Below, piece by piece: positions 30,600-34,520 of a stretch of 64,000 nt of DNA. A program made the translations under genes and the position numbers. The notes under the pieces were generated by a model, which saw only the letters and a list, made by a program, of their open reading frames with translations, had not been told where the DNA came from and did not search any database. Source of the DNA: Fimbriimonas sp. (GTDB taxonomy: Bacteria; Armatimonadota; Fimbriimonadia; Fimbriimonadales; Fimbriimonadaceae); assembly GCA_031292555.1 (NCBI GenBank), contig JARLGV010000130.1, positions 1 to 64,000 on the forward strand, in the 5' to 3' direction. Position 1 is the stretch's first letter. Each line of letters begins with the position of its first letter.

Positions 30600-30606
30600 A
30601 GGGATG

Positions 30607-33600
30607 ATGTGGCGCATCGAGCTGTTTGGGGGCCTCACTGCGCGTCGCGGGGATATCGTCATAAACCGGTTCAACACGCGCAAAACCGGGGAGTTGCTTG
30701 GGTTCTTGGCCGTCTATGCCGGTCGAGAATTCAGCAGGCATGAGCTGGGCTCGGCGATTTGGCCCGAATCTGACGATTCAGATGCAGTCAAAAACCGACT
30801 TCGAAACGCACTCTCTTCCCTACGAAGGCAACTCGAACCACCTGGAATAGAATCGGGATCGGTCCTGGTAAGTGCCCGAGATACGATCTCTCTCAACCGG
30901 CAAGTAGTCCACACAGACTTGATCGAATTCAAACACCAAGTCGCATTGGCCCGATCAAGTGATGTCAACCAGCTGAGTGCTCCGACTGCGCGGGCCCTCG
31001 ATCTGTACGGAGGTGCCCTCCTGTCCGGCTATGAGGGCGACTGGGTCTACCTAGAGCAGAGGGTCATCGAACTGGATCTCCTGCACATGGCCAGGCAAGT
31101 GAGCGAACCTATGGTTGGTGAGCAAGTACCGGCCTCCGTTCGAAGTCGATTATTGAAGATCGCCTTGAGTATCGAACCATATGACGCTCGTTGGGCAGAA
31201 CTTCTCGTCCAGACTTTGGCCAATGGAGGGTCGACAAAGGAGGGCCTCGATATCCTCAGGGCGTTCCGCAAGCGCCTTGAACAAGACCTCGGAGATTCGA
31301 TTCCAGCCGATCTAGCCAACTTGGAGTCATGTCTGGTGTCGGCTCTCAAGTCGCCTTCGGCTAGCAAGACGAATGGCGATCCATTGCTTCGATCCCAACC
31401 GGCTTCGATCGCGTCATCTCGTTTTCCAATTCCGCCAACCCGATTCTTCGGTCGCGAAGCCGAACTAGCCAACCTTCGCCGTCTACTAGTCGATGAGAAG
31501 TCTCGACTTGTTACGGTGGTCGGCCCCGGAGGTTCCGGAAAGACGAGGCTATCCCTTCAACTCGCCAGTTCGCTTGCTCCGGAAGGAGTGAACGAGACGT
31601 GGTTTGTCCCACTTGCCGACCTCGACGACGGAGACAAGATCGCCGACGCGATCCTTGAGGCGATTTGCGGTACGTCTAGCGTCGAAGGTCATGGGACGAA
31701 CTCGGTCGTGGAGGCACTGTCGCACTACGCAAAACCGCTCCTTGTGCTGGACAACTTCGAGCACCTGATCGAACAAGGCGCCGACATCGCCCATTCCCTC
31801 CTCAGGAAGATCCCGACGCTCCAGCTACTGATCACGTCGCGACATATGCTCCAGCTTGAGGGAGAGCAGATCATGGCCCTCGGGCTACTGCCGACGCCAA
31901 CGTCGGACGAGATGAATCCGGAAGATCTCGGAAAGATTGCCAGCGTTCAACTCTTCCTCGATCGAGCAAGACTGGCGAAAGCAGATTTTCAGGTCACTAC
32001 ACGTAATTGCCAGACAATCTCCCGCCTGGCAATGCGACTTGAAGGCATTCCGCTTGCGATCGAACTTTGTGCTGCACTTGCGTCGACTACGACGCCTTTC
32101 CAGATGCTCCACAGCCTTGATGAGAGGTTTGGACTATTGAAGAGCCGAAGGCGCGATATCCCTGCCCGGCATCGTACTCTACACGCTGCCATTCAATACA
32201 GTACCGATCGGTTGCTCGATTCCATGGCCCAGTCATTCTTTCGGCTGAGCGTATTCCGGGGCGGGTGGTCCCGCGATGCCGCCTCCGCACTTCTAGGCGT
32301 CGATAACTCCGATCAGTTGGTTCTCGAATTGCAGGATCGGTCGCTCGTCACTCCGGTTGTCGTTTGGATCGGCCAAGACGAGCATGTACGATTCACAATG
32401 CTTGAAACGATCCGTGACTTCGCCAAGAGCGAACTTCCCGAATCGGAACGAATCCCGCTTGCTGACCGACATGCGAAGTGGTTCAGCGACTTTGCCCATC
32501 GGGAAAACGAAAGGGCAAAGAGTGGTGACGCATCGGCGTTTGAACGTATTGAAGCCGACTACGCGAACATCTGCACCGCCTTGGACCACCTGATCGAAAC
32601 CGCCCGTTTCGACGATGCCCTTGACCTGTGCAACGACCTGTATCGAATGTGGGCAAGCCGAAGCGAGGCCGAGGACGGTTACCAGAGATTCGACTCGATT
32701 CTATCCAACTCCGGCAGCCTCGATGCGCCGTTACGATTGCGCTGTCTTGCCGCCCAGAATCAGGCGGGATTGGCGGGCCGAATCGAGGATGCGGCGAAGC
32801 TGCTTCACTCGGCAACCAGATACTTGGTGCTTGCGGAGGAACTCCAGGACGATGGGCGCATCGCGGCGGCGTTCAATTTGGTGGCACTTCAGAGGGTCTA
32901 TATCGGTGCCCCCCATGACGCAACAAGTTTCTTCCTCAAGGGGCTGGTCCACGCCAAGAAGGCAGGTTCGATTGCCCACGAGGCGACGCTTACCTGCAAC
33001 CTAGGGATTGCTTGGATGGACACCGGAGAACGTCAACGGGCTTGGAATGCTTTCGAGAAATCGATCGATCTGTCGCTTGAGGTGAAGGAGTACAGCTACG
33101 CCTGCGTCTCATGCGCCAATCTGGCCGCCCTTGCGATCACCGAAGATAAGCTCGAGGCAGCAGGCAGATTCCTAGAACAGGGCCGTGCCCTCGCTGATCA
33201 GATCGGCCACCTCATCATTCAGCGTTCATTGGCGGCCGAGGCTGCCCGGATGGAGCTTAAGCGCAAGAACTGGCAAACGTGCGTCCAGGCGATCCAGTTC
33301 TGCCTGTCGGGCGCGACGCGCGAAACGACAACGATTGCTCTCATCTGTGCTGCCGTCGTTTTCGACGAATGGAATGAACCGCGTGCTGCGGCCACGTCAC
33401 TTGGCGCTGCCGACCGTATGTTGTCCGAAGACCAATCGCCAACTTCTTTCCTGGTCCGGTACCCCGAATTGGTTGATGCACGTGCGACAATCATGGACCA
33501 ATGGAGCGATGATTCCGCCGACGCCTATCGAGCCGGGCGAGAGATGAGCCGAATGGCTACTTGCCGCGCGACGCAAGAAAGACTTGAGGCGCTGACCAGC

Positions 33601-33624
33601 AGGCTTGCCGCCAATCCGCGCTAA
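30607..33624 (+). CDS. SARP/AfsR-type regulator: wHTH, BTAD, NB-ARC-like ATPase, TPR
   Basis: About 1005 residues. Residues 1-95 form the OmpR-like winged helix of SARP activators (LFGGLTARRGD, NRLRNALSSLRRQLE). The BTAD helical domain follows (about 97-245; LDLYGGALLSGYEGDWV). An ATPase of the STAND/NB-ARC class begins near 285, with Walker A GPGGSGKT at about 306-313 and Walker B LLVLDNFEHL near 378. The LEGIPLAIEL motif near 480 is the GLPL-type box. TPR-like helices fill the C-terminal third. Such proteins are ATP-switched transcription activators. Two in-frame ATGs (30604, 30607) are possible. A matching direct-repeat operator lies just downstream (33647-33682). Confidence 0.9.
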   Translation: MWRIELFGGLTARRGDIVINRFNTRKTGELLGFLAVYAGREFSRHELGSAIWPESDDSDAVKNRLRNALSSLRRQLEPPGIESGSVLVSARDTISLNRQVVHTDLIEFKHQVALARSSDVNQLSAPTARALDLYGGALLSGYEGDWVYLEQRVIELDLLHMARQVSEPMVGEQVPASVRSRLLKIALSIEPYDARWAELLVQTLANGGSTKEGLDILRAFRKRLEQDLGDSIPADLANLESCLVSALKSPSASKTNGDPLLRSQPASIASSRFPIPPTRFFGREAELANLRRLLVDEKSRLVTVVGPGGSGKTRLSLQLASSLAPEGVNETWFVPLADLDDGDKIADAILEAICGTSSVEGHGTNSVVEALSHYAKPLLVLDNFEHLIEQGADIAHSLLRKIPTLQLLITSRHMLQLEGEQIMALGLLPTPTSDEMNPEDLGKIASVQLFLDRARLAKADFQVTTRNCQTISRLAMRLEGIPLAIELCAALASTTTPFQMLHSLDERFGLLKSRRRDIPARHRTLHAAIQYSTDRLLDSMAQSFFRLSVFRGGWSRDAASALLGVDNSDQLVLELQDRSLVTPVVVWIGQDEHVRFTMLETIRDFAKSELPESERIPLADRHAKWFSDFAHRENERAKSGDASAFERIEADYANICTALDHLIETARFDDALDLCNDLYRMWASRSEAEDGYQRFDSILSNSGSLDAPLRLRCLAAQNQAGLAGRIEDAAKLLHSATRYLVLAEELQDDGRIAAAFNLVALQRVYIGAPHDATSFFLKGLVHAKKAGSIAHEATLTCNLGIAWMDTGERQRAWNAFEKSIDLSLEVKEYSYACVSCANLAALAITEDKLEAAGRFLEQGRALADQIGHLIIQRSLAAEAARMELKRKNWQTCVQAIQFCLSGATRETTTIALICAAVVFDEWNEPRAAATSLGAADRMLSEDQSPTSFLVRYPELVDARATIMDQWSDDSADAYRAGREMSRMATCRATQERLEALTSRLAANPR

Positions 33625-33646: not shown

Positions 33647-33682
33647 CATTTAATGCGACATTTAATGCACCGTTCGTACAAT
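33647..33682 (+). promoter_or_regulatory. Direct-repeat operator with -10 box, SARP-type layout
   Basis: CATTTAATGC occurs at 33647-33656 and again at 33659-33668, a 12-base period, near the place of a -35 box. TACAAT (33677-33682) follows 8 bases after the second repeat. SARP activators bind tandem repeats (usually 11-base period) whose last copy sits 8 bases from the -10 box. The leader to ATG 33729 would be about 40 bases. Confidence 0.5.
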
Positions 33683-33728: not shown

Positions 33729-34520
33729 ATGAAATTGCATCGGTCAAACCTCCGTTCAGGCTTTACCCTCATCGAGCTACTTGTCGTGATCGCTATCATC
33801 GCGATCTTGGCTGCCATTCTGTTCCCGGTTTTTGCCCAGGCAAAGGAGGCAGCCAAGAAGACCCAGTGCCTCAGCGATCTAAAGCAGTTGGCGCTCGCCT
33901 CGACCATGTATGAAGGGGACTATGACGACTCGATCGTTCCCTACGAAACGGCACTTCCCACTGGCTTCTTTGCGGCATGGTATGGAGTCGATATGGGATG
34001 GCAAGGCTGCGACCTAAGTAATCCCGCTGGGCTGTTGAGCCCCTATTTCAAGAACAACGATATCAAGGTCTGCCCGACTGGCAAGAGCATACCGTTTCCG
34101 ATCCAGGGGACCTGGCCAAGCTATGGTTACAACGAGCTGATCTGGAATGCGAATATGGATCGCCACTTCCCATCGTTGTCAGTATTTCAGCAGCCGTCCG
34201 AGACAGTCATCTTCGGGGACGCCGCAACCTATTGGGATGGATACGGAATCTCGAAGGACATGGCACTCTATCCTGCTTCTGAGACTTCGCTCTTCGATGC
34301 ACCGAGCGCACATGGCCTCCACGGAGGCAGCATGTGCAACGTCGCTTGGATCGACGGCCACGCCAAGTCGTTGCACCCAGTCCCGCGTCCGAACTGTGCC
34401 GACCCAGCTCAGTTCGCTGCAAACAACTTGGGCGATCTTTTGAAAGGGGCGAGAACTGGCAACTTGGTTACGGACAGCTACTACTTCCTCGCCGACAAGA
34501 CCACCCTCACGATGCCGTGA
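33729..34520 (+). CDS. Type II/IV pseudopilin with DUF1559-like domain
   Basis: 263 residues. The prepilin peptidase site is RSGFTLIE, with Phe+1 and Glu+5, followed by the hydrophobic helix [19 protein letters not shown]. The head domain has [20 protein letters not shown], two conserved-looking Cys pairs, and the closing [11 protein letters not shown] motif. These proteins are exported and processed by PilD-like peptidase and assembled in thin fibres or secretion machines; Armatimonadota carry many copies. The [13 protein letters not shown] run is the lineage marker used in the summary. Likely target of the SARP-type regulator upstream. Confidence 0.92.

Follow-up and report, generated by a model that had tools for sequence, protein, structure and literature searches.

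The stretch of DNA analysed here, hereafter the window, comprises 64,000 nucleotides and carries on its forward strand a gene for an AfsR-like regulator which is followed, after a gap that holds an exact tandem repeat and a -10 element, by a gene for a prepilin-type protein. The features on which the analysis relies are the following, with the basis of each annotation given in brackets:

30604..33624, + strand: AfsR-like regulator gene, 1006 aa, with OmpR-type winged helix, BTAD, NB-ARC/AAA NTPase and C-terminal repeat region (Pfam, profile, model)
30778..30837, + strand: codons 59-78 of this gene, recognition helix and end of the preceding HTH loop, VKNRLRNALSSLRRQLE region (alignment, model)
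33647-33656, + strand: candidate operator, copy 1, CATTTAATGC (sequence)
33659-33668, + strand: candidate operator, copy 2, CATTTAATGC, 12 bp from copy 1 (sequence)
33677-33682, + strand: -10 element TACAAT, 8 nt past copy 2 and 9 nt past TTTAATG (sequence)
33729..34520, + strand: putative target gene, prepilin-type protein of 263 aa with N-methylation motif and DUF1559 (Pfam, NCBIfam)

Between 34774 and 36260 the window also holds short ORFs which, as judged by eye from the ORF list, resemble the N-terminus of an efflux adaptor and a TolC-like C-terminal part; these are apparently incomplete genes.

The two copies of CATTTAATGC are identical, recur with a period of 12 and together span 33647-33668; the first starts 22 nt past the end of the stop codon of the AfsR-like gene, and the prepilin-type gene starts 60 nt past the end of the second. 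Expressed in heptamers, the site reads TTTAATG-N5-TTTAATG-N9-TACAAT, the heptamer frame within the longer repeat being our own choice both here and in the cassette L312 described below, and if TTTAATG is the heptamer, the distance to the -10 element equals that of the homologous cassettes. The sole sigma70-like -35 sequence at 16-18 nt is GCGACA (33655-33660), which agrees with the consensus at 4/6 positions, leaves a 16-nt spacer and covers the linker as well as two bases of each CATTTAATGC copy. A preliminary description of this DNA had reported a repeat of 12-base period ending 8 bases before TACAAT and, just before it, a gene for a BTAD/NB-ARC activator, and both observations stand, the repeat being exact and the gene product being AfsR-like by profile and predicted fold. 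Its further statement that the repeat replaces the -35 box holds roughly, the weak GCGACA being the only candidate, whereas the designation of the target as a surface fibre, for which the basis is the prepilin N-terminus and DUF1559 only, is not retained.

The domain composition of the regulator was analysed by Pfam, by profile comparison and by structure prediction. The BTAD domain (PF03704) scores 27 bits against a cut-off of 22.1 and AAA_16 is also found over its cut-off, with Trans_reg_C (23.6 bits, cut-off 26.2) and NB-ARC (20.3 bits, cut-off 23.5) remaining below theirs; Pfam yields neither a TPR nor a receiver-domain match in this protein. The window protein by itself retrieved nothing from the PDB, and a search with the profile of its clade placed AfsR on top (8k60, 8jke, 8hvr; 5.2e-31), with alignments to the SARP-NTPase part (32-390) and to the C-terminal repeats (780-923) of AfsR, as well as to TPR proteins. 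It is by way of this clade profile that the NTPase and the C-terminal TPR region of an AfsR-type large SARP are recognized. The OmpR-type N-terminal DNA-binding domain, whose Pfam match is sub-threshold, is recognized from the predicted fold: the model of residues 1-270 has a pLDDT of 94.3 and a helix at 59-77, and matches AfsR (8k60, 8hvr) and EmbR first and OmpR-type domains thereafter, the AfsR and EmbR matches having a TM of about 0.6 and an rmsd of 5-6 Å across both subdomains. As judged from profile and model, the window protein passes the tests for an AfsR-type large SARP that were run.

We have analysed the surroundings of related BTAD genes in other genomes. A first set comprised 60 regions around BTAD matches from the genus, family and order, and in 9 of these the BTAD gene is directly followed on its own strand by a pseudopilin gene, as it is in the window. 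A family search of 85 genomes later added 20 further regions; altogether, 115 loci were reduced to 96 genes from 95 loci by dropping duplicates, genes with an unaligned N-terminus and those with less than 250 nt downstream, the resulting sample being a non-random one which consists mostly of the best matches to the window protein. A pseudopilin gene lies directly downstream of 12 of these 96 BTAD genes, the window included, in 8 genomes of which two belong to a sister genus. In ten of the 12 gaps a GTTGACG-like heptamer is repeated at a period of exactly 11 bp, with 0-3 mismatches over the 14 positions, and these gaps share the layout GTTGACG-N4-GTTGACG-N9-NANNNT, in which the distance from GTTGACG to the -10 element is 9 nt. 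When these ten gaps are aligned on the box, the two heptamers reach a mean column identity of 0.78 and 0.84, the linker 0.67 and the -10 element 0.56, the values for the spacer and the flanks being 0.29 and 0.24-0.28, respectively; within the -10 element A2 and T6 are invariant (10/10) and a TA start is found in 7/10. The eleventh cassette, L312, uses another word, CTTTTCGA-N3-CTTTTCGA, also with a period of 11 bp and with TAGCAT placed 9 nt past TTTTCGA.

The same period emerges when no motif is assumed. Scanning the regions downstream of the 96 BTAD genes for 7-mers with a self-match of at least 6/7 gave period 11 in 31/96, the next best period reaching 15/96, and 65/96 genes were without such a repeat at this level. 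Exact runs of at least 7 are found with period 11 in 12/96 regions and with any other period in at most 4 (period 12: 4, window included), while in 200 shuffles the period-11 runs averaged 0.77 with a maximum of 6; when the minimum is raised to 8, period 11 is found in 8/96, the next period in 4, and the shuffle mean is 0.2. As in SARP operators, the 3' repeat of the window site lies 8 bp from the -10 element and over the -35 region. The direct repeats of such operators lie 11 or 22 bp apart, which is the case in 11/11 of the other pilin-linked gaps and is not in the window (12 bp), and for this reason we class the window site as a variant of the SARP operator rather than as a standard one.

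The word itself behaves differently from the arrangement. When 3 mismatches or fewer are allowed, a second copy of the 22-mer pattern is found neither in the window nor in the 6.46-Mb genome, and 20 genomes of the genus yield three other matches, each with 3 mismatches, the same number as the reversed control (three). The repeat together with its -10 element, at up to 2 mismatches, has one other match in 85 family genomes; this lone match, in G005, overlaps the start codon of a pilin gene, and we attribute it to coincidence within coding sequence. The window's own repeat is thus without a credible copy elsewhere, and it is the arrangement, not the word, that recurs; the second pilin-linked box of the same genome (L077) is likewise unique in that genome. 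Conservation of the repeat next to BTAD genes, which the preliminary description had proposed as a check, is found for the arrangement with a tandem box and not for CATTTAATGC, an outcome which, in the literal sense, that description had named as refuting its idea. On comparative sequence grounds, the SARP circuit that it had suggested is supported for the cassette family, given the 11-bp box in 11 of the 12 pilin-linked gaps, and partly supported for the window's own site, in which the period is 12 and not 11.

We have estimated how often a repeat of this kind would arise in the gap by composition. In 20,000 dinucleotide shuffles of a 154-nt region, an exact 10-mer direct repeat occurs with a frequency of 0.00045 for periods of 10-12 and of 0.00265 for any period of 8-30. 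The 64-kb window holds in total 7 exact 10-mer direct repeats with periods of 8-30, so that a bare repeat is unremarkable at this scale and the argument rests on context. These seven repeats would suit a chance repeat devoid of function, placed in an ordinary, weak pilin promoter (GCGACA, 16 nt, TACAAT), as would the lack of conservation of CATTTAATGC and the fact that a 9/12 sigma70 match covers the site, such matches being expected 0.9 times on average in the 1.6-kb region and found 3 times. The low frequency in the gap shuffles for periods of 10-12 argues against it, and so do the other pilin-linked BTAD gaps, 11/11 of which have a tandem box equally far from a -10 element, and we regard a chance origin as improbable.

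The symmetry of the repeat brings in another possibility. Each CATTTAATG copy is a near-palindrome, and the reverse strand of the window site also matches the unit pair, with 2 mismatches; since the site overlaps the promoter core, two tandem palindromes might serve as the operator of a dimeric repressor that blocks RNA polymerase. The homologous boxes GTTGACG and TTTTCGA are, however, non-palindromic, and no repressor gene is adjacent among the window ORFs, which leaves repression the most improbable of the explanations considered here.

A regulator that reads the box linked to its gene should have a recognition helix that varies in step with the operator word, and this is what we observe. 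The core of the recognition helix is NLRQ in 10/10 regulators linked to GTTGACG boxes and RLRN in the window, and an inserted residue near codons 57-60, in the HTH loop, sets the window protein apart from all other rows of the 45-row alignment. In the regulators linked to Gfo/Idh-type and mscL-like genes, described below, this core is RLNQ. According to the available part of the AfsR study (PMC10936776), the base contacts of AfsR are made by T88 and R92 of the recognition helix, and in our own reading of the profile alignment these correspond to N68 and S72 of the window protein. A tree of the best 40 of the 96 BTAD genes places the window beside the main pilin-linked clade (support 85/90), in a position which is unsure because of its long branch, and places L312 in another clade.

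GTTGACG boxes are also found at pilins away from a BTAD gene. The pattern GTTGACGN4GTTGACG with at most 1 mismatch occurs in 70 places in the 20 genus genomes, against 35 for the reversed control, and 8 of these 70 lie just before a pilin, namely in five linked cassettes and in three unlinked loci (L167, L172, L190). A TA at +9 accompanies 7/8 of the pilin-preceding tandems and 0/62 of the others. Of these 62, as many as 55 fall within open frames 150 or more codons long, all six frames being considered; most tandems being non-pilin and inside open frames, the word alone is not specific. The DNA upstream of L167, L172 and L190 contains no BTAD homologue over about 3.5, 1.5 and 0.48 kb, respectively, the last distance being set by the contig end. 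The genomes of the three unlinked boxes (G012, G002, G004) also carry linked cassettes, and the linker words agree between the two kinds, being TTTG in G012 and G004 and, for one of the two cassettes of G002, CTCG. In all 13/13 GTTGACG boxes, the 3 unlinked ones included, a -35 is absent at a distance of 16-18 nt from the -10 element (0-2/6 matches).

An exact search of the 85 genomes with GTTKAYRN4GTTKAYRN9TANNNT returned 6 matches, 5 of them before pilins (4 linked, 1 unlinked), and 2 for the reversed control. The full-pattern match L336, in G052, is not followed by a pilin. When 80 distinct pilin upstream regions, taken from the loci analysed here and hence enriched for linked pilins, were compared with the GTTGACG box, 12 had 0-2 mismatches (9 linked, 3 unlinked), 3 had 3 mismatches (one linked), 5 had 4 and 60 had more. 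Paralogues of the three unlinked pilins (L362, L363, L345, L346, L364, L347) have no box at 0-2 mismatches.

A second family of boxes is found upstream of pilins. TTAA cores lie 11 bp apart in 16 of the same 80 pilin upstream regions and 22 bp apart in 12/80, other periods being found in 0-5/80; for period 12 the count is 2/80, the window being one. Triple STTAAS sites number three in the 20 genus genomes, and all three precede pilins. Loci with TTAA boxes include L353 and L352 (upstream of pilins at 1506 and 3089), L346, L355, L368, L370, L371, L374 and L200, the last of which belongs to the window's own genome and reads TTTAACT-N4-CTTAATG-N9-TAATGT, close to the window site. PhoB/PhoP-type response regulators are winged-helix proteins whose boxes are direct repeats with an 11-bp period that cover the -35 region; the regulator adjacent to the window site differs from them in having no receiver-domain match in Pfam. 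We take the TTAA-core boxes of this genus to resemble the box of a PhoB-type regulator, and taken together they look like an OmpR/PhoB-type pilin regulon.

These boxes give rise to the main rival explanation of the window site, by which its repeat would be the box of an OmpR/PhoB-type, or other winged-helix, regulator encoded elsewhere that uses TTAA units at several pilins, the BTAD neighbour being incidental. The preference of TTAA cores for 11 and 22 bp among pilin upstream regions and the placement of the triple sites are in line with this explanation, as are the likeness to L200, the TTAA core within TTTAATG and the near-palindromic character of the window unit, shared with the TTAA units. 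On the other hand, the window site has a period of 12 in place of the 11 and 22 bp of the TTAA family and the 11 bp of PhoB/OmpR boxes, TTTAAT misfits STTAAS, TTAA pairs are rare in BTAD gaps, and the other 11 pilin-linked BTAD gaps hold a GTTGACG-like box (10) or TTTTCGA (1). A distant regulator of this type is in our view a less likely but serious alternative at the window site, and we rank control by the linked regulator above it.

From the sequence comparisons as a whole, the tandem repeat of the window is probably the operator of the adjacent AfsR-like regulator, which would activate the downstream pseudopilin gene; we read the repeat as the regulator's own docking site because relatives keep the arrangement of regulator, repeat and pilin. 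In such a mechanism, two regulator protomers would sit side by side on the two copies, in the position of the -35 element that sigma region 4 requires, and would recruit RNA polymerase to TACAAT, thereby switching the pseudopilin gene on in response to a signal which may be sensed by the NB-ARC/repeat part of the regulator. Binding, activation and signal are all steps that we infer, and the 12-bp TTTAATG form may be a divergent variant of the site, recognized by a likewise divergent helix. Against this explanation stand the lack of conservation of CATTTAATGC, its period of 12, the TTAA core that it shares with the second box family, the unsure position of the window in the tree, the 65/96 BTAD genes without a repeat at the 6/7 level, the lack of a clear box at mscL-linked genes and the absence of the box from paralogues of the unlinked pilins.

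A circuit of this kind may, by analogy, work like the AfsR-afsS switch of Streptomyces coelicolor, which, in the available part of its description (PMC10936776), has the same HTH-BTAD-NTPase-TPR architecture of about 1000 aa and the same two tandem direct repeats before a -10 element with a poor -35. The distance from the repeat to the -10 element is given there as 8 bp in SARPs, which is also that of the window. The window circuit differs from AfsR-afsS in its phylum, in having as target a pseudopilin and not a regulator of secondary metabolism, in its repeat word, in its period of 12 (11 in 11 other cassettes), in the adjacency of regulator and target, and in having N68/S72 where AfsR has T88/R92. 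PimR/SARP-LAL regulators similarly use heptameric direct repeats, two of which are needed for binding, with a spacing of 10 and 11 bp (PMC5930380, available part); the PimR operator is upstream of the -35 element, whereas that of the window lies over the -35 position. A 12-bp SARP operator appears neither in the available part of PMC5930380 (10 and 11 bp) nor in that of PMC10936776 (11 or 22 bp). A sequence precedent for the window's period is offered by L217, a Chthonomonas record in which ATCCACGTT occurs twice at 12 bp after a BTAD gene. A literature search that covered few subscription papers found no report on BTAD activators with pilins or on regulators of DUF1559 prepilins.

Both protein families are largely expanded in the window's 6.46-Mb genome (G000), in which the pseudopilin has 117 matches and the AfsR-like regulator 17; for Fimbriimonas ginsengisoli, 79 PulG-like genes have been reported (PMC4072686, available part). 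A wider interpretation, plausible but advanced tentatively, is that the AfsR-like genes of this bacterial family are portable cassettes, each with a private operator after or overlapping its stop codon which consists of two heptamers one helical turn apart and a -10 element without a -35, the heptamer diversifying together with the recognition helix. By this means single members of a pseudopilin family of more than 100 genes would be wired to separate sensors, beside the TTAA-box pilin regulon.

The study of SARPs has mostly concerned antibiotic activators in Streptomyces. Should the portable-cassette interpretation be true, SARP geometry would be a promoter principle of general use in bacteria rather than one peculiar to antibiotic genes. 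The locus ties SARP architecture and promoter geometry to pseudopilin genes, in a group of bacteria that has received little study, regulator, putative operator and target being immediate neighbours. The cassettes may further constitute a natural library of paired recognition helices and operator words, a resource for deriving a SARP recognition code, and they may help to explain the large number of pseudopilins retained in such genomes.

BTAD genes with other neighbours complete the picture. Exact 11-bp repeats of other words are found at L079, L083, L292, L314 and L315. Six AfsR-like genes that form a clade (L290, L293, L295, L299, L313, L317) are followed by a gene which, by its N-terminal sequence, is Gfo/Idh-type oxidoreductase-like; 3/6 of these gaps reach a 6/7 self-match, and inspection by eye of L290, L293, L295 and L313 shows CTTTTAG-like heptamers that recur with an 11-bp period at the stop codon. 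In three genus genomes, an AfsR-like clade (L065, L066, L068) precedes a gene that is mscL-like by its N-terminal sequence, and the scan of downstream regions detected no clear tandem box in these gaps. Among the best 80 loci of other phyla, a downstream period-11 repeat of at least 7 is found in 1/24 BTAD genes with an aligned N-terminus, which indicates that the position of the box after the stop codon is not general in those phyla. In the same best 80 loci, an exact 11-bp repeat lies upstream of the BTAD gene in 5/24 (L205, L221, L239, L262, L273), the highest count of all periods from 5 to 35, the next being 3; such upstream 11-bp repeats would fit autoregulation.
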